A DNA stretch of 64,000 nt from Bartonella harrusi (GTDB taxonomy: Bacteria; Pseudomonadota; Alphaproteobacteria; Rhizobiales; Rhizobiaceae): contig NZ_CP101114.1 in assembly GCF_024297065.1 (NCBI RefSeq), positions 1,826,501 through 1,890,500 on the forward strand. Reading direction: 5' to 3'. The notes under the pieces are model-generated. The model was given only the letters and a program-made list of their open reading frames with translations. It did not search any database and had not been told where the DNA came from. Shown piece by piece: positions 7,741 to 48,445 of the stretch (positions are counted from its first letter, which is position 1; each line of letters starts with the position of its first letter). A program made the position numbers and the translations under genes.

Positions 7741-8108
7741 AAAACTTTCCTTTTGATCAGAGAGGAGCTGTAAAATGGCTTTCTGTTTTTTACAGAGTTC
7801 AGCACTCGAAAGCTTTTTAAAAGCAAATATTCTTCTTTGCTCGAGATGATTTCATCATGATGGTATGGGGGCTCTTGCTTTGTTAAAAGATCCGCATAAA
7901 AAAAGGCAAGAGGAACATCCAGTTTTTCAGCAATTTCCTTTAAGCACCCAGCGCTTACACGATTGAGTCCCGTTTCATATTTTTGGATTTGTTGTGCGCT
8001 TAACCCTAAGAGGTTTCCGAGTTCTTTCTGAGATATTTTCAACATTTTTCGCTTAAAGCGGATTTTTTTGCCGATAGAAATGTCGTGAAAAAGGTTTTTA
8101 TCTTGCAT
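7722..8108 (-). CDS. XRE-family regulator (Trp-like), frameshifted tail
   Basis: From the ATG at 8108 the helix-turn-helix and most of the C-terminal module are intact. One extra T in a run near 7785-7790 shifts the frame, so the end reads KNRKPFYSSSL instead of KQKAILQLLSDQK. The protein is 128 residues. A cysteine replaces arginine in SAGCLKEIAEKL, shared with the copy at 8502. Its leader has mismatched pairing halves. It may still bind DNA. Confidence 0.6.
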   Translation of the reverse strand: MQDKNLFHDISIGKKIRFKRKMLKISQKELGNLLGLSAQQIQKYETGLNRVSAGCLKEIAEKLDVPLAFFYADLLTKQEPPYHHDEIISSKEEYLLLKSFRVLNSVKNRKPFYSSSLIKRKVFNAITL

Positions 8109-8340
8109 TTTATTCCCCCACCGGGTGCGAGCGCCCTCGCATTGGTATTCCGGGAGTAACAAGTACTGAACCCTAGTCAGCTTTTTGCTTTTAGTGCTTG
8201 ACAGCACCTGGACATAGCAAAATCTCCCGGAATCCCGGGAACACCCATGGGAATGGGCTTATTTTTATGCTCGGATTTTAGGGTTTTTAGATCCCTCTTG
8301 GTCGTTGCGTAGGCGACCAAAACACCAGCCAAATAATAAA
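8109..8340 (-). ncRNA. Brt-like leader RNA, mismatched pairing element
   Basis: Complete leader with all stems. The upstream side (forward 8270-8277, CTCGGATT) is of the type at 39140-39370, while the loop side (forward 8169-8176, AACCCTAG) is of the type at 8862-9085; they do not pair. A nearby AACCCTAA in the RNA could pair imperfectly with the loop. Confidence 0.6.
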
Positions 8341-8501: not shown

Positions 8502-8861
8502 TTATTTCTGATCAGAGAGGAGTTGTAAAATGGCTTTCTGTTTTACAGAGTTTAGCACTCGAAAGCTTTTTAAAAGCAGATATTCTTCTTTGCTCGAGAT
8601 GATTTCATCATGATGGTATGGGGGCTCTTGCTTTGTTAAAAGATCCGCATAAAAAAAGGCAAGAGGAACATCCAGTTTTTCAGCAATTTCCTTTAAGCAC
8701 CCAGCGCTTACACGATTGAGTCCCGTTTCATATTTTTGGATTTGTTGTGCGCTTAACCCTAAGAGGTTTCCGAGTTCTTTCTGAGATATTTTCAACATTT
8801 TTCGCTTAAAGCGGATTTTTTTGCCGATAGAAATATCGTGAAAAAGGTTTTTATCTTGCAT
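8502..8861 (-). CDS. XRE-family regulator (Trp-like), intact array copy
   Basis: Full-length 119-residue copy from MQDKNLF to LLSDQK. The helix-turn-helix covers residues about 10-65. It differs from other intact copies by SAGCLKEIAEKL and KISQKELG. The leader upstream (8862-9085) has a matched pairing element. The reading frame stays open into the leader, up to an ATG at 9002, but the conserved ribosome-binding region just before 8861 supports this start. Confidence 0.85.
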   Translation of the reverse strand: MQDKNLFHDISIGKKIRFKRKMLKISQKELGNLLGLSAQQIQKYETGLNRVSAGCLKEIAEKLDVPLAFFYADLLTKQEPPYHHDEIISSKEEYLLLKSFRVLNSVKQKAILQLLSDQK

Positions 8862-9085
8862 TTTATGCCCCCACCGAGTGCGAGCGCCCTCGCATTGGTA
8901 TTCCGGGAGTAACAAGTACTGAACCCTAGTCAGCTTTTTGCTTTTAGTGCTTGACAGCACCTGGACATAGCAAAATCTCCCGGAATCCCGGGCTATCCAC
9001 AAAGTGGGTTCATTTTTACGCTAGGGTTTAGGGCTTGTTTTCCCTCTTGGTCGTTGCGTAGACGACCAAAATCATATGGTTAAAT
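8862..9085 (-). ncRNA. Brt-like leader RNA, matched pairing element
   Basis: Loop side (forward 8922-8929, AACCCTAG) and upstream side (forward 9021-9028, CTAGGGTT) are complementary over 8 bases. Hairpins CCCAC-TTT-GTGG and GGTCG/CGACC-like are present. The same pair type recurs on the other strand at 33118-33334. Confidence 0.7.
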
Positions 9086-9253: not shown

Positions 9254-9553
9254 TTATTTCTGATCAGAGAGGAGCTGTAAAATGGCTTTCTGTTTTACAG
9301 AGTTTAGCACTCGAAAGCTTTTTAAAAGCAGATATTCCTCTTTGCTCGAGATGATCTCATCATGATATGCAATAACTTCCATCATCTCTGTAACAACAGC
9401 ATTGATCACTTCTTGTTCATCACCTTCAAGCATCATGCGAAAACCCTGCTTCAAAAACCTCTCCTCAAGCAACGCATTGGCAAAATCTCTCTTATCTCCC
9501 CCCAAAATATCCCACAAATCCCTCAAGAGCCTTCTTGCAAACGCACTCTTCAT
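9254..9553 (-). pseudogene. chimeric ORF: glmM-tail repeat fused to a regulator C-terminus
   Basis: A 99-residue open frame. Its first part (FARRLLRDLWDILGGDKRDF and the glmM-like [18 protein letters not shown]) comes from the 380-bp repeat unit; after AYHD it continues as EIISSKEEYLLLKSF to LLSDQK, the regulator C-terminus. The join is inside a shared TCATGAT-like sequence near 9360. It is a recombination scar; expression is not demonstrated. Confidence 0.65.
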
Positions 9554-10123
9554 CGCTCTTTTATTGATTGCCTTTCAATCAGGTGCCCATAACCCGCACT
9601 TTGAGAAAAAATCACCAGCGATATTTTTCCAACAGTATCACTTCCCCTATGTATAATATAATCAAAAACACGAGCTGATTCATAGATTTTAGAAAGGATT
9701 CACGCTTTCTCGAGGGAAACTTCCTCTTTTGCAAGCGTATCGTGATATGCAATAACTTCCATCATCTCTGTAACAACAGCATTGATCACTTCTTGTTCAT
9801 CACCTTCAAGCATCATGCGAAAACCCTGCTTCAAAAACCTCTCCTCAAGCAACGCATTGGCAAAATCTCTCTTATCTCCCCCCAAAATATCCCACAAATC
9901 CCTCAAGAGCCTTCTTGCAAACGCACTCTTCATCGCTCTTTTATTGATTGCCTTTCAATCAGGTGCCCATAACCCGCACTTTGAGAAAAAATCACCAGCG
10001 ATATTTTTCCAACAGTATCACTTCCCCTATGTATAATATAATCAAAAACACGAGCTGATTCATAGATTTTAGAAAGGATTCACGCTTTCTCGAGGGAAAC
10101 TTCCTCTTTTGCAAGCGTATCGT
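9364..10123 (-). repeat. 380-bp tandem repeat containing the glmM 3' end (two extra copies)
   Basis: Two exact or near-exact units at 9364-9743 and 9744-10123; the corresponding start of a third is the real glmM end at 10080-10190. Each unit holds the last 40 or so glmM codons, the glmM stop, a spacer, and the start of an unidentified ORF (MKSAFARRLLRDLWDILGG) that fuses back into a glmM tail. The complete ORF in the second unit is 9700-9933 (77 residues). Confidence 0.8.
9700..9933 (-). pseudogene. unidentified ORF start fused to a glmM tail
   Basis: 77 residues: about 35 of unknown origin (LLRDLWDILGGDKRDFANAL) then [12 protein letters not shown] to the normal GlmM end. The first part may be the start of the gene that once followed glmM. 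In the fusion RMMLEGDEQ replaces the GlmM sequence RIMAEGDEQ. Probably not functional. Confidence 0.5.
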
Positions 10124-14495: not shown

Positions 14496-16019
14496 TTATC
14501 TTTTCACCTCGATATTAAAAAAAGGCTCCACAACATTCACCAGAGCGGCATCTTCACGTGATAAAAGCCAATCGAAGGGTGCCATAATCCGCTTGATATG
14601 AACATTTGAAGAAGAATGCGTTTGAGAAGTTAACTCTGGAATATCATATCCTTTGTCATTTGAAAACATTAACAATGATTGTAAAGAGGGGAAATGGGGA
14701 TTTTCAAGATCAAGAGCGCTTTTTTGCAAAAGCGCTTTTAGCTGCGTCAAACCTGCGGCACCAATCTTGATGGGCTCTCCTCCATGATTGGTGATCTGAT
14801 AGCGCCCATCCCATAGAAACGTTTTTCCAGGCTCAACAACCTCCTCTTTCATATTGCGAGATTCGCGCCAAAGAACAACTCCGCTCCTATTTGATTCAAT
14901 GACAGCTCCAGCGAGAGTAAAGCGTTGCTTTTCTGAGGCGTCGAGACAGAGCTTTTGAGCAAGAATCCTCAATTTTTGAGCAGGAAGTAAATATGATCCC
15001 CCGCCCATCAATACAGCAAACAACCCAACGACAAAGGGAAAACTTGGATGTTGTTGTAAGAATGGCGCGGGTTTTGCAATAACACAACGTCCATAGGCAA
15101 CAGCAATATCCAGAGCCAAAATGAGATCAGCAACAATTTTTACCTGTTGACGACGTTTTAATGCGGCTTCATGAACCTTTTGTACAATCTCGGCAAGTTT
15201 TTTTTGCTGAAGGGATTGACGCACACGCACGCGTTCAAAATTGCGATCTTCATTGGTTGGATCATCAATCCACCTTTTGCCCTTTAGGTGCAAATAAGTA
15301 CGCAATGTTTGCCGCTTAACATCAAGGAGCGGACGAATCAAGCGTATTTCTCGACAAAGCAATGCCTCACGTGGAATACAAGATAACCCCCGCGCATACA
15401 TCAACCCATCGTTTTTTTCAGCCATAAGACACATTTTTTGCGCACTCTTTTCTTCAACCTCTCTAGAAGAGATTCGACCACGCATACCTTCAAAGGATTC
15501 AGCGGATAAAACACCGGCAGATGCTCTCATATAATCGCCACCCGACATATTGGAAAAAGCAAGTTGCCGCCTCTCCTCTGTAACCTTCTGGAGACGTTGG
15601 CAACGCATTTGATAGGTTTCAACCTGATCATTGAGGGTATGCCCTGTCATAATAAGGGTTGCACCCTGTTTTTGCGCTTCTTTAAAGAGCAGGTTATAAC
15701 GCGCAATACGCGCACTTGAAGCGATATGAGTCTTTGGTTTTTTTCCCTCCCACCGCACAATACGATGTTTAATGCGATGGGCACGACAAATTTCTGCAAC
15801 GGTTAAAGCTTCACGGGTTGATTCTTTGCGTAATTGATGATCAACGGTAACAGCAATGATTTCCGGAGCAGAAGAGAGCGTTTTAAAATGGTCTTTGACT
15901 AAAAACAGCAAAGCCAGAGAATCGCTCCCTCCTGAGACAGCAAGAATCACCTTTTGACACTGGATAAAATCCGATGTTTTAAAGAGATTTCCTGCGAGTC
16001 TAACGCACACCGTGACCAA
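14496..16019 (-). CDS. tilS: tRNA(Ile)-lysidine synthetase
   Basis: Modifies C34 of the CAU anticodon of tRNA-Ile2 to lysidine, using ATP and lysine, so that it reads AUA. The PP-loop ATP-binding motif SGGSDS is at residues 29-34; GHTLNDQVETYQMR and LIRPLLDVKRQTLRTYL are the further conserved blocks of the N-terminal domain. At 507 residues it is longer than most family members: about 70 residues (from about LQKVTEERRQLAFSNMSGG to KNDGLMYARG) are inserted between these blocks. The start overlaps the end of cpoB by 20 bases, indicating translational coupling. Confidence 0.93.
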   Translation of the reverse strand: MVTVCVRLAGNLFKTSDFIQCQKVILAVSGGSDSLALLFLVKDHFKTLSSAPEIIAVTVDHQLRKESTREALTVAEICRAHRIKHRIVRWEGKKPKTHIASSARIARYNLLFKEAQKQGATLIMTGHTLNDQVETYQMRCQRLQKVTEERRQLAFSNMSGGDYMRASAGVLSAESFEGMRGRISSREVEEKSAQKMCLMAEKNDGLMYARGLSCIPREALLCREIRLIRPLLDVKRQTLRTYLHLKGKRWIDDPTNEDRNFERVRVRQSLQQKKLAEIVQKVHEAALKRRQQVKIVADLILALDIAVAYGRCVIAKPAPFLQQHPSFPFVVGLFAVLMGGGSYLLPAQKLRILAQKLCLDASEKQRFTLAGAVIESNRSGVVLWRESRNMKEEVVEPGKTFLWDGRYQITNHGGEPIKIGAAGLTQLKALLQKSALDLENPHFPSLQSLLMFSNDKGYDIPELTSQTHSSSNVHIKRIMAPFDWLLSREDAALVNVVEPFFNIEVKR

Positions 16020-18237
16020 CCTCGTTCCTTTTTACAGGTTTACAAAAGACAGCCTCCAACGTTTTAGGATATTTTGTTTTTTTCACTACAGCTGGACAAG
16101 CCTCTTTATTTTTCTCGAGAGTTACCATACTCAGTGCTAATTTCAACAAGATTTCAGAACTATAGAGCTGCTTTTTATCTGTATACCACGCAGTGAGATA
16201 CACTTGTGCCGCTTCATGATAGCGTTTTTGTCCTAACAAAGCTTCTGCTAACCAGAACAATGCATCATCACTCAAAGGGTCTTTTTTATACCGCTGTTGA
16301 AAAGCACAGAAGGACTTTTCAGCATCAACATAGTTTGCCAAACGAAGAAAATCGTAGCCTTTTTTATACAACGCTTTAGAAGAGGAAAGTGAAGAATCCT
16401 CATCCATCTGCGCATTGCCATCATTTTTTTCTTGATGATTCTTCTCTAAAGGATTTTCCTGCAAATGGTCTTCTGTTTCCTTCACATCTTTATGGACTTC
16501 CTTCAGATGATCACCTGTTTTTTTCACATGGCCATAGATATCCTGTAAATGGCGTTCATAATCATGGCTTTCCACATTAGCAACACTCTCCTGGACATCT
16601 TTTACACTATGCTTGTGCCTCATATCTTCTTTTACAGCTGGCAAATTTTCATCCACAGTCGCACTTTCAAAAGCACAAGAATACACAGAAGCGTCTTTTT
16701 GATCAAAAAGCTTGTGGAATTGCTTTTGTACATTTTTCAAACTGTTATGTTCAAGCACGGTCCGTATATTCTGCAAGAGTTTATCCAAATCATAATCTTT
16801 AAACAGAGCCTTTTGATTTTCTAAAATAAACTCTCGACTTTGAATCATTCCCTGAAAAGCAGGGACTGTCGCAGCCTTTTCCACCACACCCGCAGCTTTA
16901 TCACTAACATCAGCATCAGCCTTCTTCACCGCATCGACAGCTTTATCCGCAGCAGGCGCAGCCTTTTCTACCGCACCCGCGGCTTTATCACTAACATCAG
17001 CACCAGCCTTCTTCACCGCATCGACAGCTTTATCCGCAGCAGACGCAGCCTTTTCCACCACACCCGCAGCCTTATCACTAACATCAGCACCAACCTTCTT
17101 CACCGCATCGACAGCTTTATCCGCAGCAGACGCAGCCTTTTCCACCACACCCGCAGCCTTATCACTAACATCAGCACCAACCTTCTTCACCGCATCGACA
17201 GCCTTATCACTAACATCAGCACCAGCCTTCTTCACCGCATCGACAGCCTTATCCGCAGCAGACGCAGCCTTTTCTACCACACCCGCAGCCTTATCACTAA
17301 CATCAGCACCAGCCTTCTTCACCGCATCGACAGCTTTATCCGCAGCAGGCGCAGCCTTTTCTACCGCACCCGCGGCTTTATCACTAACATCAGCATCAGC
17401 CTTCTTCACCGCATCGACAGCTTTATCCGCAGCATCAGCACCAACCTTTTTCACCGCATCGACAGCCTTATCCGCAGCAGGCGCAGCCTTTTCTACCGCA
17501 CCCGCGGCTTTATCACTAACATCAGCACCAGCCTTCTTCACCGCATCGACAGCCTTATCCGCAGCAGGCGCAGCCTTTTCTACCGCACCCGCGGCTTTAT
17601 CACTAACATCAGCACCAGCCTTCTTCACCGCATCGACAGCTTTATCCGCAGCAGGCGCAGCCTTTTCTACCACACCCGCAGCCTTATCACTAACATCAGC
17701 ACCAGCCTTCTTCACCGCATCGACAGCTTTATCCGCAGCAGGCGCAGCCTTTTCCACCGCACTCGCGGCCTTATCACTAACATCAGCACCAGCCTTCTTC
17801 ACCGCATCGACAGCTTTATCCGCAGCAGGCGCAGCCTTTTCTACCGCACCCGCGGCTTTATCACTAACATCAGCACCAGCCTTCTTCACCGCATCGACAG
17901 CTTTATCCGCAGCAGGCGCAGCCTTTTCTACCGCACCCGCGGCTTTATCACTAACATCAGCACCAGCCTTCTTCACCGCATCGACAGCCTTATCCGCAGC
18001 AGGCGCAGCTTTTTCCACCGCATCCGCAGCATCATCTGTAGCAGGCTCCGCCTTCTCCCCCGCAGCTTTATCGGTAGCATCAACGCCAGCCTTACTCTGA
18101 GCAGCAGAATCCGAGTTTTCTTTAGAATATTGCGAAGGCCATCGTGCCGCACTTTGGACAGACGAAGCAAAGCAAGTGATGAAAACAGCCACACACAAGG
18201 CTGTTTCCCAGTTTTTTTTACGCCATATTAACATCAT
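16000..18237 (-). CDS. cpoB: Tol-Pal system protein CpoB/YbgF with 14 internal repeats
   Basis: Periplasmic coordinator of peptidoglycan synthesis and outer-membrane constriction in the Tol-Pal machine. An N-terminal signal peptide (residues about 1-31, ending VQSAARW) and a C-terminal TPR domain (last 140 residues, ALYKKGYDFLRLANYVDAEK; LSDDALFWLAEALLGQKRYH) identify the family, with the gene's position between pal and tilS. Between them lie 14 tandem units of DKAVDAVKKAGADVS plus DKAAGAVEKAAPAA (29 residues, 87 bases); units 7 and 10 are shortened to 15 residues. At 745 residues it is over twice the normal length. The repeat is Ala/Lys/Asp-rich and should form amphipathic helix or coiled coil. 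The repeat leaves long false ORFs open on the opposite strand. Confidence 0.9.
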   Translation of the reverse strand: MMLIWRKKNWETALCVAVFITCFASSVQSAARWPSQYSKENSDSAAQSKAGVDATDKAAGEKAEPATDDAADAVEKAAPAADKAVDAVKKAGADVSDKAAGAVEKAAPAADKAVDAVKKAGADVSDKAAGAVEKAAPAADKAVDAVKKAGADVSDKAASAVEKAAPAADKAVDAVKKAGADVSDKAAGVVEKAAPAADKAVDAVKKAGADVSDKAAGAVEKAAPAADKAVDAVKKAGADVSDKAAGAVEKAAPAADKAVDAVKKVGADAADKAVDAVKKADADVSDKAAGAVEKAAPAADKAVDAVKKAGADVSDKAAGVVEKAASAADKAVDAVKKAGADVSDKAVDAVKKVGADVSDKAAGVVEKAASAADKAVDAVKKVGADVSDKAAGVVEKAASAADKAVDAVKKAGADVSDKAAGAVEKAAPAADKAVDAVKKADADVSDKAAGVVEKAATVPAFQGMIQSREFILENQKALFKDYDLDKLLQNIRTVLEHNSLKNVQKQFHKLFDQKDASVYSCAFESATVDENLPAVKEDMRHKHSVKDVQESVANVESHDYERHLQDIYGHVKKTGDHLKEVHKDVKETEDHLQENPLEKNHQEKNDGNAQMDEDSSLSSSKALYKKGYDFLRLANYVDAEKSFCAFQQRYKKDPLSDDALFWLAEALLGQKRYHEAAQVYLTAWYTDKKQLYSSEILLKLALSMVTLEKNKEACPAVVKKTKYPKTLEAVFCKPVKRNEVGHGVR

Positions 18238-24113: not shown

Positions 24114-25787
24114 TCATTGTGTTATCTCTTGAAGGGGATCAACATTAAAATCGAAACCCTGCCCCCATAGATCATATTGATCACGGGGAAGATCTGCATA
24201 GGGTTGACATGAAAAAACAGCTGCATACACCTGTCTTACCATAATGGCTTTCTGACTTTGTGCACCGCTTAACGGATCAATAATGGGATCTCCCACAACC
24301 ATTCCTTCACGGTTTAGATAAAATCGCAACCGCACCGCTGGACGGTTTTTTAAATCACCACCAAGCGCCACAAGTTTAAGCTTCTGTTGAATACATCCCC
24401 CAACAATGCTGACCAATGTTTGTGCCATTTTTGTGGTATCATTGATATTTTTTCTCGCTCCCAAAGCTTCAGGTGTCGTGGAACGTTTTGCCCCACCGCC
24501 TTGCGTTCGTGCACGATTCAACAGATTATTTTCTTCCATTGCCAAAATATCTTCAATTGTCTCACTCTCCATGTGTTGGTTGTTCTTTTTTGTTGCTTGC
24601 ACATTTTGAAAAGCAGGCTTTTTATCAGACTTCGGTTTGAAGTGAGGAAGAGGGAATTTATCGGGCAGCGTTATTTGGGGCGTTTGTGGACGCGCTGGTG
24701 CTTGTTCTATAGAGGCTTTGGGGATGGTGAGAGCAGGCTCTTGCGGCAATGTTCTTTTTTCATTTTTGCGCATCTCCAAAGGCGCATCAGGCAGCACCTT
24801 TGGCGCTTCCTCTTGCGGCGTCTCCAAAGGCGCATCGGGCAGCACCTTTGGCGCTTCCTCTTGCAGCGTCTCCAAAGGCGCATCAGGCAGCACCTTTGGT
24901 GCTTCCTCTTGCAGCGTCTCCAAAGGCGCATCAGGCAGCACCTTTGGTGCTTCCTCTTGCAGCGTCTCCAAAGGCGCATCAGGCAGCACCTTTGGCGCTT
25001 CCTCTTGCGGCGTCTCCAAAGGTGCATCAGGCAGCACCTTTGGCGCTTCCTCTTGCGGCGTCTCCAAAGGCGCATCAGGCAGCACCTTTGGCGCTTCCCC
25101 TTGCGGCGTCTCCAAAGGCGCATCGGGCAGCACCTTTGGCGCTTCCTCTTGCGGCGTCTCCAAAGGCGCATCGGGCAGCACCTTTGGCGCTTCCTCTTGC
25201 GGCGTCTCCAAAGGCGCATCAGGCAGCACCTTTGGCGCTTCCTCTTGCGGCGTCTCCAAAGGCGCATCGGGCAGCACCTTTGGCGCTTCCTCTTGCGGCA
25301 TCTCCAAAGGTGCATCAGGCAGCACCTTTGGCGCTTCCTCTTGAGGAGGCTCTATTTTTGGCGGCATTTCCGTTTTTGCTTGTGAGAATTCTTGCTCTAT
25401 CAATTCTGGTGAAGATTTTTCCGGTACGTCTTCTTTTCCTGGTGGTGGAGGTGTTGTATCAACAAGTCGTGGTTTTTCGTTTGGTTTAAAAGGCGCGAGA
25501 CTATCGAGTTTTCCTTCTCCAAAATAACGAGCATCTTCTTTTTCTTGTGGTTTGGTCGTTGGTTTTATTGCTGGAACAGCACCCACAGGAGCATCCACTG
25601 CCCCTTGCTGTGAAGAAAGCTCTTGCGTTACAGGAGCAAGGGTGATGGGAATTGCTTCCAATTGTTGTGGCAAAGAGACCGCACTGATGAAATGGACACT
25701 CGCCCAACTGAGCAAAATCCCATGTATGACAAGGGATAAAGCCAAGCCTCGTTTCATGCTATGATAAGAGTCTTTGTTCATCTCCAT
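24114..25787 (-). CDS. tolA: TolA with 12 copies of a 16-residue repeat
   Basis: Inner-membrane protein that spans the periplasm and transmits TolQR energy to TolB/Pal. One membrane segment lies at residues about 13-35 ([19 protein letters not shown]). The C-terminal domain III (last 100 residues) has [26 protein letters not shown] and [11 protein letters not shown]. The central domain carries 12 tandem units of [16 protein letters not shown] (48 bases each), Pro/Glu-rich rather than the usual Ala/Lys/Glu helix. The start may be ATG 25787 or 25781 (better spacing from AAGG). It is in the operon tolQ-tolR-tolA-tolB. The repeats leave false ORFs on both strands. Confidence 0.93.
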
Positions 25788-29576: not shown

Positions 29577-30767
29577 ATCCCCATCATGCTGTGACCTTCA
29601 AACGATGCGAGAAACTGTTACAGCGCAACCCATAGTAAACCACAAGGGCAAGGGCATCAGCCGCATCATGGCACGCAAATTCAGCACGAGGAAGCAGAGT
29701 TTTCACCATCATCATAGCAGTATCACAAAGACCTTTGAATTCACTCATCATACCCAAATCTCCATCATGCCGTAACCCTCAAACGATCAGAGAAACTGTT
29801 ACGATGCATACTATGGCAAATCGCAAGGGCAAGAGCATCTGCCGCATCATTGCTATCAAATTCAGCACGAGGAAGCAGAGTTTTCACCATCATCATAGCA
29901 GTATCACAAAGACCTTTGAATTCACTCATCATACCCAAATCTCCATCATGCCGTAACCCTCAAACGATCAGAGAAACTGTTACGATGCATACTATGGCAA
30001 ATCGCAAGGGCAAGAGCATCTGCCGCATCATTGCTATCAAATTCAGCACGAGGAAGCAGAGTTTTCACCATCATCATGGCAGCATCACAAAGACCTTTGA
30101 ATTCACTCATCATACCCTAACCCTCATCATGCTGTGACCCTCAAACGATGCGAGAGACTGTTACGATGCATACTATAGCAAATCGCAAGGGCAAGGGCAT
30201 CAGCCGCATCATTGCTATCAAATTCAGCACAAGGAAGTAGAGTTTTCACCATCATCATAGCAGTATCACAAAGACCTTTGAGTTCACTCATCATACCCAA
30301 ATCCCCATCATGCCGTAACCCTCAAACGATCAGAGAAACTGTTACGATGCATACTATGGCAAATCGCAAGGGCAAGAGCATCTGCCGCATCATTGCTATC
30401 AAATTCAGCACAAGGAAGCAGAGTTTTCACCATCATCATAGCAGTATCACAAAGACCTTTGAGTTCACTCATCATACCCAAATCTCCATCATGCCGTAAT
30501 CCTCAAACGATGCGAGGAACTGTTACAGCGCAACCCATAGTAAACCGCAAAGTCATCAGCCGCATCATGGCACGCAAATTCAGCACAAGGAAGCAGAGTT
30601 TTCACCATCATCATAGCAGTATCACAAAGACCTTTGAATTCACTCATCATACCCAAATCTCCATCATGCCGTAACCCTCAAACGATCAGAGAAACTGTTA
30701 CGATGCATACTATGGCAAATCGCAAGGGCAAGAGCATCTGCCGCATCATTGCTATCAAATTCAGCAC
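29577..30767 (-). repeat. tandem array of the ruvC 3' end, about 181 bp per unit
   Basis: Units begin at about 29688, 29869, 30050, 30231, 30412 and 30587 (GAGGAAGCAGAGTTTTCACC or a variant, spacing 181, one of 175), leading to the real ruvC at 30768. Each holds the last 45 or so codons of ruvC, with its stop, and a short spacer ending TCATACCCAAATC, the sequence just upstream of ruvA. The array thus inflates the ruvC-ruvA junction from about 10 to 1100 bases. Confidence 0.9.
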
Positions 30768-31579: not shown

Positions 31580-31990
31580 CTCCTTTTCACGAAAAGCAAA
31601 ACACCCAAAGAAAACACCATGTGTTGCACATTCACACAGTTTTCTAAAAAAACATCTCTTGAAGAAGGCACCCAAACCCATTTCGCAGTAGCGCCTGTAA
31701 AGGGTCTGGTCATAAATCCACTGTCAATCGATTGTGCACCACCATCTTTATGCTTATGACGGTACAATCCAGCAGCAGCATTCTCTTTACCAGCCCTGAA
31801 ATGCTCAGAAAGTTCTCGCATGAAGACGATTCATAACAAGCATTTTTACTTTTTTCTCAAACGATTTCATTCACACACTCCTCCACCTTGTGCCATGCAA
31901 GGAGATGGTTTCGTGTGATTCAACATAAAACAGATTTGAAATGAGAAAATTTTAAGGTATTTAAGGGTTTTTACTCAACAGACAAAGTGA
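31580..31990 (-). pseudogene. integrase relic with leader, minus strand
   Basis: Initiator CAT at 31841-31843 with GTAAAA before it; the arm-domain fragment reads as AGLYRHKHKDGGAQ then diverges. The conserved leader in reverse (31844-31990) ends at TTATCATTATTCCGGG, exactly where the truncated leader RNA begins. It faces away from the array at 32.0-34.5 kb. Confidence 0.6.
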
Positions 31991-31999
31991 TAAATTATC

Positions 32000-32225
32000 A
32001 TTATTCCGGGAGATTTTGCTCTGTCCAGGTGCTTATCAAGCACTAAAAGCAAAAGGCTGATTCAGACTTCAGTTCTTTCAACTCCCGGAATACCAATGCG
32101 AGAGCACTCGCACCCGGTGGGGGAGTAAAATGCAAAGCAAAAACCTTTTTCACGACATTTTTATCGGCAAAAAATTGCTTCAGAGGAAAATATTAAACAA
32201 ACAAGATCAATGCACAAAAGTGCTA
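32000..32225 (+). pseudogene. truncated leader + regulator unit
   Basis: The leader lacks its 5' half and starts at ATTCCGGGAG. The regulator begins at ATG 32130 (MQSKNLFHDIFIGKK) but after about 15 codons is joined to the normal 3' flank (AAACAAACAAGATCAA) by an internal deletion. The same deletion is found at 40098, 41313 and 42496. Confidence 0.65.
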
Positions 32226-32344: not shown

Positions 32345-32582
32345 AATTCCTTTATGACTAAAAAGGTCATTTTGGTCGTATACGCAACGATCAATGGAGT
32401 GTTGGAAGCTCTAAGACTCAAACATAAAAATTGATCCCGCTTTGCGGGTGTCCCGGAATTCCGGGAGCTTTTGCTATGTCCAGGTGCTTTTAGCACTAAA
32501 AGCAAAAGGCTGATTTGAGTTCAGTGCTTCCAACCTCCCGGAATACCAACGCGAGGGCGCTCGCACCCGGTGGGGGAATGAG
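32345..32582 (+). ncRNA. Brt-like leader RNA, matched pairing element
   Basis: The upstream side ACTCAAA (32416-32422) is complementary to the loop TTTGAGT (32514-32520) of the CTGA...TCAG hairpin, with one further G-U possible. CCCGC-TTT-GCGGG replaces the CCCAC-TTT-GTGGG stem of other copies, a compensatory change. A TTGTAA-17-TATGAC promoter-like pair lies just upstream. Confidence 0.7.
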
Positions 32583-32942
32583 ATGCAAGGCAAAGACCTT
32601 CTCAACGACATTTTTATCGGCAAAAAAATCCGCTTCAGAAGAAAAATGTTGAAAATGTCTCAAAAAGAATTGGGGCAATCTTTAAATCTAAGCGCACAAC
32701 AAATTCAAAAATATGAAACGGGTCTCAATCGTGTAAGCGCTGGGCGTTTGAAGGAAATTGCTGAAAAACTGGATGTTCCTCTTGCCTTTTTTTATGCTGA
32801 TCTCTTAACAAAACAACAGCCTCCATACCATCATGATGAAATCATCTCGAGCAAAGAGGAATATCTGCTTTTAAAAAGCTTTAGAGTGCTAAACTCTGTA
32901 AAACAAAAAGCCATTTTACAGCTCCTCTCTGATCAGAAATAA
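32583..32942 (+). CDS. XRE-family regulator (Trp-like), intact array copy
   Basis: 119 residues, starting MQGKDLLNDIFIGKKIRF. The helix-turn-helix is KMSQKELGQSLNLSAQQIQK followed by YETGLNRVSAGRLKEIAEKL; plus-strand copies have SLNLS where minus-strand copies have LLGLS. The C-terminal module ends LLSDQK. The gene is first of three consecutive intact units with a period of about 750 bases. The 3' flank has a short ATCTTG/CAAGAT stem. Confidence 0.88.
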   Translation: MQGKDLLNDIFIGKKIRFRRKMLKMSQKELGQSLNLSAQQIQKYETGLNRVSAGRLKEIAEKLDVPLAFFYADLLTKQQPPYHHDEIISSKEEYLLLKSFRVLNSVKQKAILQLLSDQK

Positions 32943-33083
32943 AATCTTGGACAAACAAGATCAATGCACAAAAGTGCTATCACTTTTTTCACCATCTTCT
33001 CTCTGATAAACAGCGCAGTGCCTCTCATGTAAGAAGTCGCTCTCATTATAAAACTCTACAGTAGAGAAACTTTTTCATTTTTA

Positions 33084-33112
33084 TTGTAAATCCTTTGAAA
33101 TTCCTTTATGAC
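33084..33112 (+). promoter_or_regulatory. putative promoter of a leader RNA
   Basis: TTGTAA (33084-33089), 17 bases, TATGAC (33107-33112). The pair and its spacing are conserved before the leaders at 32345, 33118, 33860, 39140 and 41537, even where the spacer differs (TCCTTTGAAATTCC or TCCCCTAAAATTCC). Transcription would start around 33119, just before the GGTCG hairpin. Inferred by comparison only. Confidence 0.5.
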
Positions 33113-33117
33113 TAAAA

Positions 33118-33334
33118 AGGTAGTTTTGGTCGCCTACGCAACGACCAATATGGGTTTGAAAGCCCGAAACCCTAGCGTAAAAATGGACCCACTTTGTGGG
33201 GATCCCGGAAGTCCGGGAGTTTTTGCTATGTCCAGGTGCTGTCAAGCACTAAAAGCAAAAAGCTGACTAGGGTTCAGTTCTTTCAACTCCCGGAATACCA
33301 ACGCGAGGGCGCTCGCACCCGGTGGGGGAATGAA
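33118..33334 (+). ncRNA. Brt-like leader RNA, matched pairing element
   Basis: AACCCTAG (33168-33175) is complementary to CTAGGGTT (33267-33274) in and beside the loop of the CTGA...TCAG hairpin. The CCCAC-TTT-GTGGG stem, the CCGGGAG/CTCCCGG long-range helix and the TTTTGCT/AGCAAAA stem are all present. Same pair type as 8862-9085 on the other strand. Confidence 0.72.
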
Positions 33335-33694
33335 ATGCAAGGCAAAGACCTTCTCAACGACATTTTTATCGGCAAAAAAATCCGCTTCAGAAGAAAAATG
33401 TTGAAAATGTCTCAAAAAGAATTGGGACACTCTTTAAATCTAAGCGCACAACAAATTCAAAAATATGAAACGGGTCTCAATCGTGTAAGCGCTGGGCGTT
33501 TGAAGGAAATTGCTGAAAAACTGGATGTTCCTCTTGCCTTTTTTTATGCTGATCTCTTAACAAAACAACAGCCTCCATACCATCATGATGAAATCATCTC
33601 GAGCAAAGAGGAATATCTGCTTTTAAAAAGCTTTAGAGTGCTAAACTCTGTAAAACAAAAAGCCATTTTACAGCTCCTCTCTGATCAGAAATAA
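33335..33694 (+). CDS. XRE-family regulator (Trp-like), intact array copy
   Basis: 119 residues, nearly identical to the copy at 32583 (SLNLS in the helix-turn-helix, with H for Q in KELGHSL). Start at ATG 33335, after GGTGGGGGAATGAA; the frame is open upstream through the leader to 33194, but that extension is RNA structure, not conserved protein. Middle unit of the three-copy array. Confidence 0.88.
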   Translation: MQGKDLLNDIFIGKKIRFRRKMLKMSQKELGHSLNLSAQQIQKYETGLNRVSAGRLKEIAEKLDVPLAFFYADLLTKQQPPYHHDEIISSKEEYLLLKSFRVLNSVKQKAILQLLSDQK

Positions 33695-33859
33695 AATCTT
33701 GGACAAACAAGATCAATACACAAAAGTGCTCCTGCTTTTCTCACCATCTTCTCTTTGATAAGCAGCGCAGTGCCTTTCATGTAAGAAGTCGCTCTCATTA
33801 CAAAACTCTACAGTAGAGAAACTTTTTCATTTTTATTGTAAATCCTTTGAAATTCCTTT

Positions 33860-34087
33860 ATGACTAAAAAGGTAGTTTTGGTCGCCTACGCAACGACCAA
33901 TAGGGACCTTGAAAACCCGAAGCCTCGATATATAAACTTGCCCCGCTTTGCGGGTGTCCCGGAATTCCGGGAGTTTTTGCTATGTCCAGGTGCTTTTGGC
34001 ACTAAAAGCAAAAAGGCTGATCGAGGTCAGATTTTCAAGCTCCCGGAATACCAACGCGAGGGCGCTCGCACCCGGTGGGGGAATGAA
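33860..34087 (+). ncRNA. Brt-like leader RNA, matched pairing element
   Basis: CCTCGAT (33923-33929) pairs with ATCGAGG (34020-34026). The long helix is ATTCCGGGAG (33964-33973) with CTCCCGGAAT (34040-34049); inside it TTTTGCT (33975-33981) pairs with AGCAAAA (34007-34013), and GTGC/GCAC closes a hairpin. This copy shows the whole fold most clearly. Confidence 0.72.
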
Positions 34088-34447
34088 ATGCAAGGCAAAG
34101 ACCTTCTCAACGACATTTTTATCGGCAAAAAAATCCGCTTCAGAAGAAAAATGTTGAAAATGTCTCAAAAAGAATTGGGACACTCTTTAAATCTAAGCGC
34201 ACAACAAATTCAAAAATATGAAACGGGACTCAATCGTGTAAGTGCCGGGCGCTTAAAGGAAATTGCTGAGAAGCTCAATGTGCCCCTTTCCTTTTTTTAC
34301 GCTGATCTTTTAACAAAGCAACAGCCCCCATACCATCATGATGAAATCATCTCGAGCAAAGAGGAATATCTGCTTTTAAAAAGCTTTCGAGTGCTAAACT
34401 CTGTAAAACAGAAAGCCATTTTACAGCTCCTCTCTGATCAGAAATAA
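34088..34447 (+). CDS. XRE-family regulator (Trp-like), intact array copy
   Basis: 119 residues, third unit of the array. It differs from its neighbours by EKLNVPLSFFYADLL in place of EKLDVPLAFFYADLL, the end of the DNA-binding domain. The C-terminal module is unchanged. About 90 bases after the stop, the conserved leader of another integrase relic begins. Confidence 0.88.
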   Translation: MQGKDLLNDIFIGKKIRFRRKMLKMSQKELGHSLNLSAQQIQKYETGLNRVSAGRLKEIAEKLNVPLSFFYADLLTKQQPPYHHDEIISSKEEYLLLKSFRVLNSVKQKAILQLLSDQK

Positions 34448-39139: not shown

Positions 39140-39370
39140 TGACTAAAAAGGTAGTTTTGGTCGTCTACGCAACGATCAATAGGGCCTTGAAAACCCTAAA
39201 ATCCGAGCACAAAAATAAACCCATTACCATGGGTAATCCCGGGATTCCGGGAGTTTTTGCTATGTCCAGGTGCTGTCAAGCACTAAAAGCAAAAAGGCTG
39301 ACTCGGATTCAGTGTTTTCAAGCTCCCGGAATACCAATGCGAGGGCGCTCGCACCCGGTGGGGGAATGAA
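39140..39370 (+). ncRNA. Brt-like leader RNA, matched pairing element
   Basis: AATCCGAG (39200-39207) is complementary to CTCGGATT (39302-39309). The stem CCCATTACCATGGG replaces the CCCAC-TTT-GTGGG stem, keeping pairing. TTGTAA-17-TATGAC lies just upstream. Confidence 0.7.
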
Positions 39371-39730
39371 ATGCAAGGCAAAGACCTTTTTCGCGACATG
39401 TTTATCGGCAAAAAAATCCGCTTCAGAAGAAAAATGTTAAAAATGTCTCAAAAAGAATTGGGGCAATCTTTGAGGTTAAGCGCACAACAAATTCAAAAAT
39501 ATGAAACGGGTCTCAATCGTGTAAGCGCTGGGCGTTTGCAGGAAATTGCTGAAAAACGCGATGTGCCCCTGTCCTTTTTTTATGCGGATCTCTTAACAAA
39601 GCAAGAGCCCCCATACCATCATGATGAGATCATCTCGAGCAAAGAGGAATATCTGCTTTTAAAAAGCTTTCGAGTGCTGAACTCTGTAAAACAGAAAGCA
39701 ATTTTACAGCTCCTCTCTGATCAAAAATAA
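39371..39730 (+). CDS. XRE-family regulator (Trp-like), intact array copy
   Basis: 119 residues, MQGKDLFRDMFIGKKIRF to LLSDQK. Variant positions: SLRLSAQQIQKYE in the helix-turn-helix, GRLQEIAEKRDVPLSFFYA after it. The 3' flank has the palindrome AACGTTATAACGTTA and the block shared with 1240-1415. The whole unit, leader to flank, is repeated at 41537-42370 with few differences. Confidence 0.88.
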   Translation: MQGKDLFRDMFIGKKIRFRRKMLKMSQKELGQSLRLSAQQIQKYETGLNRVSAGRLQEIAEKRDVPLSFFYADLLTKQEPPYHHDEIISSKEEYLLLKSFRVLNSVKQKAILQLLSDQK

Positions 39731-39879: not shown

Positions 39880-40213
39880 TAAAAAGCGTTTTGGTCGCTT
39901 ACGTAACGACTAATATAGCCCTTAAAGCCCCGATAGGATAAATTTACCCTGCTTTATAGGTATTTTAGAATTCCGGGAGATTTTGCTCTGTCCAAGTGCT
40001 TTTAGCACTAAAAGCAAAATGCTGATCGAGGTCAGTTCTTTCAACTCCCGGAATACTAATGCGAGGGCGCTCGCACCCGGTGGGGGAATGAAATGCAAGG
40101 CAAAGACCTTCTCAACGACATTTTTATCGGCAAAAAAATCACTTCAGGAGAAAATATTAAACAAACAAGATCAATACGCAAAATGACAATCATTTTCTCA
40201 TCATTTTCACTTT
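39880..40213 (+). pseudogene. truncated leader + regulator unit
   Basis: The leader is full length but lacks the usual promoter block and its pairing halves are CCCCGAT and ATCGAGG, one mismatch. The regulator (ATG 40093) loses everything after about 15 codons by the recurrent internal deletion, leaving a 40-residue frame (MQGKDLLNDIFIGKKITSG). From 40214 to 40513 only scraps of a further regulator copy (ACAACAAATTCAAGAATATG) are seen. Confidence 0.6.
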
Positions 40214-41079: not shown

Positions 41080-41440
41080 TTATGATAAAAAGGGTGTTTT
41101 GGACACCTACACAACAACCAATGGGGCTCGTAAAGCCCCCAAAACCTCGATAAATAAATTTGCCCTGCTTTGCAGCTATCTCAAAATTCCGGGAGATTTT
41201 GTTCTGTCCAGGTGCTTTTAGCACTAAAAGCAAAAATGCTGACTAGAATTCAGTCTTTTGTACTCCCGGAATACCAATGCGAGGGCGCTCGCACCATGGT
41301 TTGAGAAATGAAATGCAAGGCAAAGACCTTCTTAACGACATTTTTATCGGCAAAAAATTGCTTCAGAGAAAAATATTAAACAAACAAGATCAACACGCAA
41401 AAGGACCACTGCTTTTCTCACCATCTTCGATTGGATAAAC
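41080..41440 (+). pseudogene. truncated leader + regulator unit
   Basis: The leader has a diverged 5' hairpin (GTTTTGGACACC) and mismatched pairing halves (CCTCGAT upstream, CTAGAATT in the loop). The GGGGGA before the start is replaced by GGTTTGAGAA. The regulator (ATG 41313, MQGKDLLNDIFIGKK) has the recurrent internal deletion. Confidence 0.6.
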
Positions 41441-41536: not shown

Positions 41537-41768
41537 ATGACTAAAAAGGTAGTTTTGATCGAATACGCAACGATCAATAGGGCCTTGAAAACCCTAAAAT
41601 CCGAGCACAAAAATAAACCCATTACCATGGGTAATCCCGGGATTCCGGGAGTTTTTGCTATGTCCAGGTGCTGTCAAGCACTAAAAGCAAAAAGGCTGAC
41701 TCGGATTCAGTGTTTTCAAGCTCCCGGAATACCAACGCGAGGGCGCTCGCACCCGGTGGGGGAATGAA
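41537..41768 (+). ncRNA. Brt-like leader RNA, matched pairing element
   Basis: AATCCGAG (41598-41605) is complementary to CTCGGATT (41700-41707). The first hairpin is GATCG/CGATC here, where other copies have GGTCG/CGACC, a compensated change. Otherwise almost identical to 39140-39370. Confidence 0.7.
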
Positions 41769-42128
41769 ATGCAAGGCAAAGACCTTCTCAACGACATTTT
41801 TATCGGCAAAAAAATCCGCTTCAGAAGAAAAATGTTGAAAATGTCTCAAAAAGAATTGGGACAATCTTTAAATCTAAGCGCACAACAAATTCAAAAATAT
41901 GAAACGGGTCTCAATCGTGTAAGCGCTGGGCGTTTGCAGGAAATTGCTGAGAAACTCAATGTGCCCCTGTCCTTTTTTTATGCGGATCTCTTAACAAAGC
42001 AAGAGCCCCCATACCATCATGATGAGATCATCTCGAGCAAAGAGGAATATCTGCTTTTAAAAAGCTTTCGAGTGCTGAACTCTGTAAAACAGAAAGCAAT
42101 TTTACAGCTCCTCTCTGATCAAAAATAA
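41769..42128 (+). CDS. XRE-family regulator (Trp-like), intact array copy
   Basis: 119 residues. N-terminal half like the copies at 32583-34447 (SLNLSAQQIQK), C-terminal half and 3' flank like the copy at 39371 (GRLQEIAEKLNVPLSFFY; flank AACGTTATAACGTTA). It may therefore be a recombinant of the two subtypes. Confidence 0.88.
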   Translation: MQGKDLLNDIFIGKKIRFRRKMLKMSQKELGQSLNLSAQQIQKYETGLNRVSAGRLQEIAEKLNVPLSFFYADLLTKQEPPYHHDEIISSKEEYLLLKSFRVLNSVKQKAILQLLSDQK

Positions 42129-42274: not shown

Positions 42275-42620
42275 ACTTAAAAAGCGTTTTGGTCGCTTAC
42301 GTAACGACTAATATAGCCCTTAAAGCCCCGATAGGATAAATTTACCCTGCTTTATAGGTATTTTAGAATTCCGGGAGATTTTGCTCTGTCCAGGTGCTGT
42401 CAAGCACTAAAAGCAAAAAGGCTGATTAAGCTCAGTATTTTCAAGCTCCCGGAATACCAACGCGAGGGCGCTCGCACTCGGTGGGAGGGAGTGAAATACA
42501 AACCAAAAAAACCTTCTTAAAAGCATTTTTATTGGCAAAAAAATCCGCTTCAGAAGAAAATATTAAACAAACAAGATCAACACGCAAAAATGCCACTGCT
42601 TTTCTCACCATCTTCTCTTT
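42275..42620 (+). pseudogene. truncated leader + regulator unit
   Basis: Leader with mismatched pairing halves (CCCCGAT upstream, ATTAAGCT in the loop). The start region is altered (GGTGGGAGGGAGTGAAATAC, ATG lost to ATA) and the regulator has the recurrent internal deletion. Confidence 0.6.
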
Positions 42621-42724: not shown

Positions 42725-42953
42725 TGATTTAACCATATGATTTTGGTCGCCTACGCAACGATCAATAGGGACTTGAAAACCCGAAACTCAAACATAAAGA
42801 TGAACCCACTTTGTGGGTATCCCGGAATTCCGGGAGATTTTGCTATGTCCAGGTGCTTATCAAGCACTAAAAGCAAAATGCTGATTTGAGTTCAGTGTTT
42901 TCAAGCTCCCGGAATACCAACGCGAGGGCGCTCGCACCCGGTGGGGGAATAAA
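42725..42953 (+). ncRNA. Brt-like leader RNA, matched pairing element
   Basis: AACTCAAA (42785-42792) is complementary to TTTGAGTT (42885-42892). The -10 element is TATGAT here. CCCAC-TTT-GTGGG and the palindromic CCCGGAATTCCGGG are present. The pair type is close to 1785-2012 and 32345-32582. Confidence 0.7.
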
Positions 42954-43331
42954 ATGCAAGGCAAGAACCTTTTTCGCGACATTTTTATCGGTAAAAAAAT
43001 CCGCTTCAGAAGAAAAATGTTGAAAATGTCTCAGAAAGAATTGGGGCAATCTTTAAATCTAAGCGCACAACAAATTCAAAAATATGAAACGGGTCTCAAT
43101 CGTGTAAGTGCTGGGCGTTTGCAGAAAATTGCTGAGAAGCTCGATGTGCCCCTGTCCTTTTTTTATGCGGATCTCTTAACAAAGCAACAGCCCCCATACC
43201 ATCATGATGAGATCATCTCGAGCAAAGAGGAATATCTGCTTTTAAAAAGCTTTAGAGTGCTAAATTCTGTAAAACAAAAAGCCATTTTACAGCTCATCTC
43301 TGATCAAAAGGAAAATAATTTTCAAAATTAA
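42954..43331 (+). CDS. XRE-family regulator (Trp-like), extended tail
   Basis: 125 residues, MQGKNLFRDIFIGKKIRF to QLISDQKENNFQN. The six extra residues result from loss of the usual TAA after DQK. The helix-turn-helix is standard. It is the last unit of the island array; beyond it the base composition drops sharply in GC. Confidence 0.87.
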   Translation: MQGKNLFRDIFIGKKIRFRRKMLKMSQKELGQSLNLSAQQIQKYETGLNRVSAGRLQKIAEKLDVPLSFFYADLLTKQQPPYHHDEIISSKEEYLLLKSFRVLNSVKQKAILQLISDQKENNFQN

Positions 43332-46865: not shown

Positions 46866-47924
46866 ATGATAAAGCAAAGCATGATAAAAAAAAGCACAAC
46901 GCTGTTCATTTTGAGTATGATGTGGTTTGCAACCACTGCGAAAAGCTTTGCTGTCATTTCTGGAGAATCCTCAGATCCTGAACATTCTTTTAATACCATT
47001 CAAGAACCTTCAAAAAAAGACCAATCTTTCCAGCCCTTACAGGCAGGGCAATATGATCAAGCCTATGACTATTACATCCAAGGCTATTATTTGAAAGCTT
47101 TTCGTGAAGCGCTAAGACGTGCGGAACAAAATGATCCTTTTGCCCAAACCCTTCTTGCACGAATTTATATGGAAGGATGTGCCATTCCTGTTGATGGAGC
47201 GCGTGCTGCCTTATGGTTTGGACGCGCAGCAAAACAAGGTGAACCACAAGCACAATTGCGCTATGGCCTCATGTTATTTGATGGTAATTTTATTACACAA
47301 AATCAAGAGCTTGGTGAACAATTTATTCGAAAATCTCTCGAGGCTGGTGTAAAGGAATCCTATTATTATTATGGACAAATGCTCCTTTATAAGGCTTCGC
47401 GTGAAAAGCAGGTTCTCGCTGGTGTCTCTTCACAAAGCAGCGAAGATGAAGCAAATGAGCAAGCACTAAAATGGTTTTTAAAAGGTGCCGCTCTTGGTGA
47501 TGCTGAGGCTGCTTTTGCTGCGGCAAAAATTCTTTCCTCAGGCACTTTAACACGCCCAAAGGATGACCGTAATGCACGCAAACTCATAGAAACCGCAGCT
47601 CAAAACAAACATACCGCAGCGCAACTTCTTTTAGCCAAATGGCTTATAGAAGGACGTGGTGGTGAAACGGATTTTCAACGCGCTTTTCAATTGCTTCTCA
47701 GCAATGCCAACAATATGGTCGCACCGGCACAAATCTCCCTTGCTAGGCTTTATCGAGATGGGATAGGCACGAAAGGCGATATAGTAATGGCAGCAGCGTG
47801 GTATATGCTTGCACAACAAGCGAAAATGCAAGCACCTGATCTTGACATAATGCTTGAAGGAATGGACAAGGCACAATTAGAAAAAGCACAGAAAGAAGCT
47901 TTGTCGCTTCTTCCTGTTTTTTAA
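46866..47924 (+). CDS. secreted Sel1-repeat protein
   Basis: 352 residues. A signal peptide (MIKQSMIKKSTTLFILSMMW, cleavage after about AKSFA) is followed by Sel1-like helical repeats: ARAALWFGRAAKQGEPQAQL, ALKWFLKGAALGDAEAAFAA, RKLIETAAQNKHTAAQLLLA and AAWYMLAQQAKMQAPD. Such periplasmic repeat proteins act as scaffolds or regulators (ExoR is one rhizobial example); the partner here is unknown. Start at 46866 rather than the long frame from 46743, whose first 41 codons come from the tandem repeat. Gene order with efp and the IMPase is conserved in relatives. Confidence 0.8.
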   Translation: MIKQSMIKKSTTLFILSMMWFATTAKSFAVISGESSDPEHSFNTIQEPSKKDQSFQPLQAGQYDQAYDYYIQGYYLKAFREALRRAEQNDPFAQTLLARIYMEGCAIPVDGARAALWFGRAAKQGEPQAQLRYGLMLFDGNFITQNQELGEQFIRKSLEAGVKESYYYYGQMLLYKASREKQVLAGVSSQSSEDEANEQALKWFLKGAALGDAEAAFAAAKILSSGTLTRPKDDRNARKLIETAAQNKHTAAQLLLAKWLIEGRGGETDFQRAFQLLLSNANNMVAPAQISLARLYRDGIGTKGDIVMAAAWYMLAQQAKMQAPDLDIMLEGMDKAQLEKAQKEALSLLPVF

Positions 47925-47954
47925 AACACGCTTCTCTGCTTCAAAGAGAGCAAG

Positions 47955-48445
47955 TTGATAGAAATTCCAAGAGTTTTTGCTATGTCTAAGTGCTTTAAGC
48001 ACTAAAAGCAAAAAAGCTAATGACGTTTCAGTATTTTCAAGCGCATGGAATACGCATAAGAGGACGCCCACAACCGGTGGGGGAGAAAATGCAAAGTAAA
48101 AATTTTCATATTGATCTTTTTGTAAGTAAAAAAATTCGTTTTAGATGAAAATGCTAAAAATGTCTCAAAAAAACATGAAGCCAGCATTCTAAGTGTAACC
48201 TTCCAACAAATCCAGAAATATGAAAAAGGCTCAAATTTCATGAGCACAGAACAGTTAAAAAAATGACCGATATCTTAGAGATATTCCACTTGTCTTTTTT
48301 ATGCTGCTACCTTAACAAAACAGCAGCCTTCCACACCACCATGATAAAATCGCGTCAAGCACAAAGAAATACCTGCTGCTTAAAAAATTTAGATTTCTAA
48401 CCTCACTGAAACAAAGAGCCATTTTACAGTTAATCTCTGATTAAA
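47955..48445 (+). pseudogene. strongly decayed leader + regulator unit
   Basis: The leader core is recognisable (TTTTTGCTATGTCTAAGTGC, GCACTAAAAGCAAAAAAGCT, CACAACCGGTGGGGGAG). The regulator (ATG 48090) has several stops; KKIRFR, CCAACAAATCCAGAAATATG and TTAACAAAACAGCAGCC mark its parts. The oldest-looking copy in the window. Confidence 0.6.

Follow-up and report, generated by a model that had tools for sequence, protein, structure and literature searches.

Brt-like leader RNAs, a family placed in front of small HTH_3 regulator genes (trp), were analysed in a 64,000-nucleotide stretch of the Bartonella harrusi genome (contig NZ_CP101114.1, positions 1,826,501 to 1,890,500; the whole stretch is referred to as the window) and across the genus. 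Comparison of the leaders shows two long-range helices lying side by side (a/a' and b/b'), in which the letters vary from copy to copy while complementarity is kept. Judged from sequence, this co-varying two-helix clamp is real, genus-wide and tied to an open downstream gene. It is best read, with a probability of about 0.5, as belonging to a two-state leader switch whose copy-specific clamp keeps folding in cis. Insulation of sister copies from one another by their matched segments is suggestive, the statistical signal being specific but confounded.

Two co-varying helices

The covariance model and the parser both count 19 full-length leaders of about 225 bases in the window (Table 1). Both arms are matched in nine of them, eight of which stand before an open trp frame, the sole exception being the leader at 3280-3507. 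Truncation, divergence or chimerism marks the remaining ten, so that the nine are a selected set. Behind these ten, two trp frames pass the length test, of which one is shortened and the other altered at its end; matched and other leaders differ in the possession of an open frame with a Fisher P of 0.0055. The nine b/b' segment pairs of the original prediction are exact reverse complements at the positions given (9/9), and its statement that each intact leader is paired is true of these nine, which make up the selected half of the 19. Its description of everything around the pair as nearly invariant was only partly right: HP1 and HP2 vary with compensation, and a second variable helix, a/a', which had been overlooked, lies directly outside b/b' and varies as much. 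The pair CTTGAAAA/TTTTCAAG serves as a/a' in four leaders (33908, 39186, 41584 and 42772), other leaders having other pairs (Table 1), and the 3' end of a' meets the start of the segment x' (CTCCCGGAAT).

The core pattern of the family occurs in 45 of the 71 genomes of the genus Bartonella. For the comparison, 200 stretches were taken from core-pattern places among the matches listed (nine of the listed matches, on other contigs, were left out, and 19 of the 23 matches in genome G024 were listed), and matches less than 170 bases from a stretch end were excluded. Four of 518 distinct 340-base stretches were without x', and the loop was usable in 511 of the other 514; counting each set of arms once leaves 502 leaders, 271 with an open trp, 228 with a broken or missing trp and three undecided. 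Counted over all coordinates, with four leaders at stretch edges, three without x' and three without a loop omitted, 544 leaders were parsed: 298 have an open trp frame at the distance expected, in 241 the frame is broken or absent, and five are undecided.

A swapped-partner control was made the main test of pairing because MAFFT misregisters partners where copy lengths differ. It bore out, across the genus, the claim of a copy-specific, co-varying pairing: the whole b' loop has an exact upstream complement in 181 of 271 open-trp leaders, compared with 1385 of 68762 swapped loops (2.0%), and in 73 of 228 leaders with a broken or missing trp (swapped loops, 1199 of 49296). With a narrower search window the open-trp figures are 181/271 versus 70/5067 swapped. 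At least 0.8 of full a/a' pairing is reached in 225/271 open-trp leaders (swapped, 1124/5145) and in 116/228 of those with a broken or missing trp (swapped, 955/4296).

Co-variation was also counted on a MAFFT alignment made without regard to the pairing. Its 40 leaders were those that came first when 118 representatives were put in random order, except that a window leader was substituted by hand for L148:1821-2045, whose upstream half is foreign. Changes on both sides occur in seven of eight a pairs and seven of seven b pairs, and none of 500 shuffles attains any of the whole-structure measures. On account of the hand exchange the count was redone on all 118 representatives, and the outcome for a and b was unchanged (6/7 and 7/7, with 86.7% and 69.9% of cells paired, respectively). 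HP1, HP2 and part of HP3 co-vary as well in both alignments. The 34 a types and 39 b types were seen in 118 combinations, and the two helices therefore vary largely independently. The b' side keeps purines, with positions -2, -3 and -4 being purine in 31, 38 and 35 of 38 types, a bias that fits compensatory drift through G-U pairs.

Both helices hold in 219/271 leaders with an open trp versus 86/228 with a broken one (odds ratio 7.0, P = 3e-23) and, among structurally clean leaders, in 178/212 versus 55/91 (odds ratio 3.4, P = 2e-5); since the leaders are related, the events behind these P values are not independent. The tie is loosened by the 52 of 271 open-trp leaders that fail one or both helices, including two of the nine of genome G022.

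In the 40-leader alignment, the arms that flank b' (CTGA and TCAG) are 96.3% paired; in the larger set they are not independently countable, the leaders having been parsed by these very arms. Such a hairpin loop could present b' as a trans-acting seed that targets other mRNAs, with b merely masking it, and a preliminary, unpublished pull-down of badA and Trp7 mRNAs with Brt1, mentioned in the accessible part of a review (PMC8070961), would agree with this. The idea is nevertheless improbable, as a/a' varies likewise although it lies outside that loop, and the quality of pairing follows the cis-linked trp frame.

A solitary type across species

Leaders of a solitary type, recognised by x = CCGGGGG, were taken from 20 genomes and allow what may be one locus to be compared between species. 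Here b/b' is perfect in 20/20 leaders and a/a' is nearly unchanged, while four b types occur, in 8, 7, 3 and 2 genomes. On a trp1 tree of the 18 rows with trp1, two of the 20 being without trp, the b type changed at least eight times; the tree is partly resolved (five of 15 inner branches starred), and strongly supported sister rows differ in b type (G022/G038, G026/G000 and G025/G049). Orthology of the locus was partly verified, the flanks matching over 150 bases in 62/190 pairs upstream and 21/190 downstream. Three further brt1-like copies, all before a broken trp, stand outside the 20; one is matched and two are not. G022 has nine leaders, of which two are identical and one precedes a broken trp. 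In the accessible portion of the report on B. henselae, Brt4 and Brt9 are identical and trp8 is a pseudogene (PMC5387305); by this leader pattern G022 is probably B. henselae, and the solitary locus Brt1.

Predicted nested and crossing folds

The segment x (ATTCCGGGAG) is complementary to x' about 70-80 bases downstream, or to p (TCCCGG) just upstream. If x takes p as its partner, a/a' and b/b' become ordinary nested helices around the three hairpins HP2, p-x and HP3. The two states were compared in 157 of 202 leaders, selected for matched arms and a standard x and x': the forced-state ensemble energy of the nested fold is lower in 138 of them, by a median of -4.5 kcal/mol, and its minimum energy is lower in 129 of 158. 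The prediction that the fold must be a pseudoknot found no support in this comparison; the crossing complementarity does exist in the leaders, beside a nested alternative predicted to be lower in energy. Two competing folds are plausible from these models, and a pseudoknot is possible, but not needed.

The pseudoknot in the strict sense would have the a/b helices and x-x' coexisting, stacked end to end, as a' and x' abut without a gap in most leaders. The x-x' pairing itself is near-invariant (99.7% paired in 40 leaders, 99.4% in 118), and in 16 of 20 solitary-type leaders one A-U pair is exchanged for G-C, the other four reading G-A in this register. Such a structure is unlikely all the same: p, the local partner of x, is kept in 264/298 open-trp and 168/241 broken-trp leaders, and the nested fold accounts for a and b without crossing helices.

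In the proposed mechanism, a/a' and b/b' together are predicted to close the leader into the nested fold around HP2, p-x and HP3. In the competing state x would take x' as its partner, p would be able to bind the ribosome-binding region, and conserved arms would display a (GGG-a-CCC) and b' (CTGA-b'-TCAG). The leader would thereby act as a two-state switch setting trp output, in which the copy-specific clamp may decide the state only in cis, because the Brt RNAs of sister copies in the same cell differ in these letters.

Several results weigh against this switch. Given the MAFFT alignment, RNAalifold chooses the x-x' fold, and both a/a' and b/b' are missing from its drawing, in which p pairs towards GGGG of the ribosome-binding region, a is placed between GGG and CCC, and the CTGA/TCAG hairpin contains b'. 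The pairings of x' and of p with the Shine-Dalgarno (SD) region show no double changes, and p-x shows at most one. The predicted unpaired fraction of the ribosome-binding region barely shifts with the nested fold (0.38 versus 0.29), and its exposure in the 157 matched leaders does not identify the ON state.

In all three leaders scanned (32451-32466, 33203-33218 and 33957-33972), the p-x hairpin with the TTTT(T)G after it fits a terminator pattern; the scanned stretch contains five such patterns on both strands, with 2.6 expected. According to the available part of the literature, the published Brt RNAs extend past this hairpin, which may be a weak terminator or a pause site. A run of at least five T within 60 nucleotides (nt) from x' occurs in just one of 298 open-trp leaders, and the published 3' end is therefore unlikely to be an intrinsic terminator.

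Are sister copies kept apart?

Selection against cross-pairing of sister leaders would keep the a+b pairs of one genome different. The pairs would then form a two-part self-recognition code that lets abundant, near-identical RNAs coexist in one cell and yet avoid cross-folding. Selection would act against equal codes, the family would be a set of mutually insulated switches and chimeras would be failed or rewired copies; we put this forward tentatively. Of the 49 same-genome pairs with trp genes at least 95% identical, 40 have unlike b types, 40 have unlike a types, and three have both types in common. Sharing within genomes was measured against between-genome pairs of equal leader similarity outside the arms, with solitary-type leaders (18 of 263) left out of these stratified tests. 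The a+b pair is shared eight times where 33.8 are expected, a ratio of 0.24 (genome bootstrap 0.11-0.45), the ratios being 0.59 for b and 0.61 for a singly. Control elements of the same leaders give 1.16 (HP2), 2.36 (HP3 loop) and 0.86 (HP1), and the a+b ratio for all broken-trp leaders is 1.29 (0.72-2.1); under a plain shuffle of labels the broken copies show an excess of a+b sharing (19 versus 9.1, P = 0.0045). The a+b ratio is 0.24 in complete-like genomes (14, so classed from contig sizes) and 0.23 in drafts, and collapsed repeats are therefore not the cause of the deficit.

Two other forms of the test were set aside. Run on de-duplicated leaders (a+b 4 versus 12.0), it overstated the deficit, as identical copies had been removed; stratification by trp identity (8 versus 38.2) was abandoned since the trp genes of one genome can be homogenized.

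The claim that the pairing keeps copies apart is partly supported by the within-genome depletion, but that depletion loses significance once orthologue-like (best-hit) pairs are removed, as was done because inherited types may raise the between-genome figure: the ratios become 0.63 (0.43-1.09) for b, 0.69 (0.57-1.20) for a and 0.12 (0-2.01) for a+b. Further points tell against insulation. The plain label shuffle is weak, both for matched leaders (P = 0.049 for b, 0.018 for a and 0.074 for a+b) and for all open-trp leaders (0.15, 0.0065 and 0.078, respectively). The 99 broken-trp leaders that are still matched lean to a deficit as well (0.47, 0-1.19), and HP2 gives 0.82 in complete-like genomes (1.49 in drafts). 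Nor is divergence restricted to the arms: where two copies of one genome have near-identical trp genes, their upstream flanks and their a-b regions are both 31% different. Repeats within a genome do exist, two window leaders (39152-39380 and 41550-41778, the only repeated a+b pair among the nine) having both types in common.

The main rival is an ordinary structural helix, comparable to the P1 stem of a riboswitch, in which compensatory drift changes the letters; copies would differ through their age and through recombination, and no identity would be written in the letters. This explanation is a serious contender at somewhat less than even odds: the purine side of b' is kept as drift through G-U pairs would have it, HP1, HP2 and part of HP3 co-vary too, the sharing deficit falls short of significance without orthologue-like pairs, and same-genome flanks are as different as the arms. 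It accommodates less readily the differences in 40 of 49 near-identical-trp pairs for each helix, and a deficit that is present for a and b but not for HP2, the HP3 loop, HP1 or the full broken-trp set. A merely drifting structural helix is nearly as likely as an insulating code.

An effect at the level of DNA, with the inverted repeats being operators or products of recombination without meaning in RNA, is very hard to credit. Chimeric leaders do reveal recombination, and trp genes are near-identical within one genome while their leaders differ; yet the segments lie about 100 bases apart, further RNA stems co-vary and the hairpin elements are conserved.

Leaders and other features of the window

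The coordinates of the leaders are collected in Table 1. Three stacked mismatched leaders without a full-length trp (4036-4804) look as repeat recombination would leave them. The same genome has a second leader cluster, on both strands (L113, G000:C2:1740226-1751734).

Table 1. Brt-like leaders of the window, with their arms and trp genes (positions within the window).
Feature	Position	Strand	Details
Leader, first of three tandem copies	32367-32592	+	Covariance model 241 bits
a, first copy	32401-32408	+	GTTGGAAG; 5' arm of second helix; pairs 8/8 with 32527-32534
b, first copy	32416-32422	+	ACTCAAA; 5' arm of reported helix
p-x local hairpin, first copy	32451-32466	+	TCCCGG-AATT-CCGGGA, then GCTTTTG; terminator- or pause-like pattern
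b', first copy	32514-32520	+	TTTGAGT; flanked by CTGA and TCAG
a', first copy	32527-32534	+	CTTCCAAC; abuts x' directly
x', first copy	32535-32544	+	CTCCCGGAAT; alternative partner of x
trp, first copy	32583-32942	+	119-amino-acid HTH_3 (XRE/Cro-CI) regulator
Leader, second tandem copy	33121-33344	+	Covariance model, parser
Arms, second copy	b 33169-33175/b' 33267-33273; a 33156-33163/a' 33279-33286	+	
trp, second copy	33335-33694	+	119-amino-acid form from ATG within longer open reading frame (ORF) 33194-33694
Leader, third tandem copy	33873-34097	+	Covariance model, parser
Arms, third copy	b 33923-33928/b' 34021-34026; a 33908-33915/a' 34032-34039	+	
trp, third copy	34088-34447	+	Within longer ORF 33860-34447
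Matched leader	39152-39380	+	b ATCCGAG/CTCGGAT; a CTTGAAAA/TTTTCAAG; trp open
Matched leader	41550-41778	+	a and b identical to those of 39152-39380; trp open
Matched leader	42738-42963	+	b ACTCAAA/TTTGAGT; a CTTGAAAA/TTTTCAAG; trp open
Matched leader	1775-2000	-	b CTCAAA/TTTGAG; a TCTAAAAA/TTTTTAGA (1966-1959/1840-1833); trp open
Matched leader	3280-3507	-	b GCTTAA/TTAAGC; a TCTAAAAC/GTTTTAGA; trp broken
Matched leader	8852-9074	-	b ACCCTAG/CTAGGGT; a AACAAG/CTTGTT; trp open
Chimeric leader	2531-2753	-	b and b' types differ; trp truncated
Chimeric leader	8099-8325	-	ATCCGAG type upstream with CTAGGGT loop; trp C-terminus altered
Mismatched leader	4036-4250	-	Shortened trp frame
Mismatched leader	4313-4526	-	No trp frame at expected distance
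Mismatched leader	4587-4804	-	Core 4719; displaced 6-base match only; no trp frame at expected distance
Leader with unrelated upstream half	31926-32139	+	No trp frame at expected distance
Mismatched leader	39886-40102	+	trp broken
Mismatched leader	41094-41322	+	No trp frame at expected distance
Mismatched leader	42284-42505	+	No trp frame at expected distance
Strongly diverged leader remnant	47888-48098	+	trp broken

Other features of the window were noted by eye. C-terminal pieces resembling glmM are repeated at 9254-10080, one of them (ORF 9254-9553) in fusion with the C-terminal tail of a trp, and two truncated N-terminal gapA-like copies (62805-63270) adjoin a full copy at 61774-62781. 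Proteins near an apparent tol-pal region (16000-18237 and 24114-25787) carry long in-frame repeats, including AADKAVDAVKKAGADVSDKAAGAVEK, and a repeated stretch at 29735-30674 gives near-identical small ORFs beside ruvC- and ruvA-like genes.

Range and relation to known systems

The Brt leader family is restricted to Bartonella. In a 121-genome sample of the bacterial family searched under strict filters, covariance model R1 matched its own genome (18 matches) and one weak place (E 2e-4) elsewhere, and the core is absent from all 63 non-Bartonella trp-like loci examined with their flanks. The weak match, G077:C29:6141-6386, belongs to another genus of the family and is probably due to chance. 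Rfam gave no match at the gathering score in the window. A small HTH/XRE gene (trp) comes directly after the leaders, and their position in the window agrees with the Brt of the available published description, an abundant transcript of 194-203 nt that ends 10-18 nt before trp.

In the accessible portions of the literature, nine Brts were found by RNA-seq, given RNAfold structures and hypothesized to be riboswitches, with the Brts abundant and the trps poorly transcribed (Tu et al., 2016; PMC5387305), while deletion of the 3' region of brt1 raised trp1 transcription and an effect of heme on a reporter is reported (review, PMC8070961). The corresponding portions of PMC5387305, PMC8070961 and PMC7717549 make no mention of the pairing, the term Brt being absent from that of the last, and among the open-access papers listed for Brt none describes it in its title or abstract opening. 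A search of the open-access literature for insulated paralogous leaders turned up no precedent.

For a published but structurally vague family of pathogen regulators, the analysis supplies a consensus fold that can be put to the test and in which two states compete. Should the insulation be true, the leaders would be natural orthogonal paralogous RNA switches separated by a short code, and the natural chimeras would be ready-made mutants.

The closest system is Brt1-9/Trp1-9 of B. henselae, with which the leaders share the placement directly before HTH/XRE genes, the restriction to the genus and a conservation strongest at the 3' end, as far as the accessible text of PMC5387305 goes. That text differs in folding each copy with RNAfold; co-varying long-range helices, alternative pairing and copy specificity do not appear in it, nor does the word 'pseudoknot'. 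The nine leaders of G022, with two identical and one before a broken trp, reproduce the B. henselae set.

Attenuators of the trp type work through mutually exclusive 1:2/3:4 and 2:3 pairings, and p, x, x' and the ribosome-binding region of the Brt leaders form a similar ladder of mutually exclusive pairs. Unlike attenuators, the Brt leaders are not known to have an upstream coding peptide or a ligand, and they add a long-range, copy-specific clamp.

In plasmid copy-control RNAs and in RNA-IN/RNA-OUT of IS10, antisense recognition is copy-specific and proceeds from a loop to a linear partner. The variable segments of the Brt leaders likewise lie between conserved hairpin arms with the partner unpaired, and the lack of equal types in one cell resembles incompatibility. 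The antisense systems differ in that trans action by Brts is only putative, both halves of the Brt pairing being carried within one RNA.

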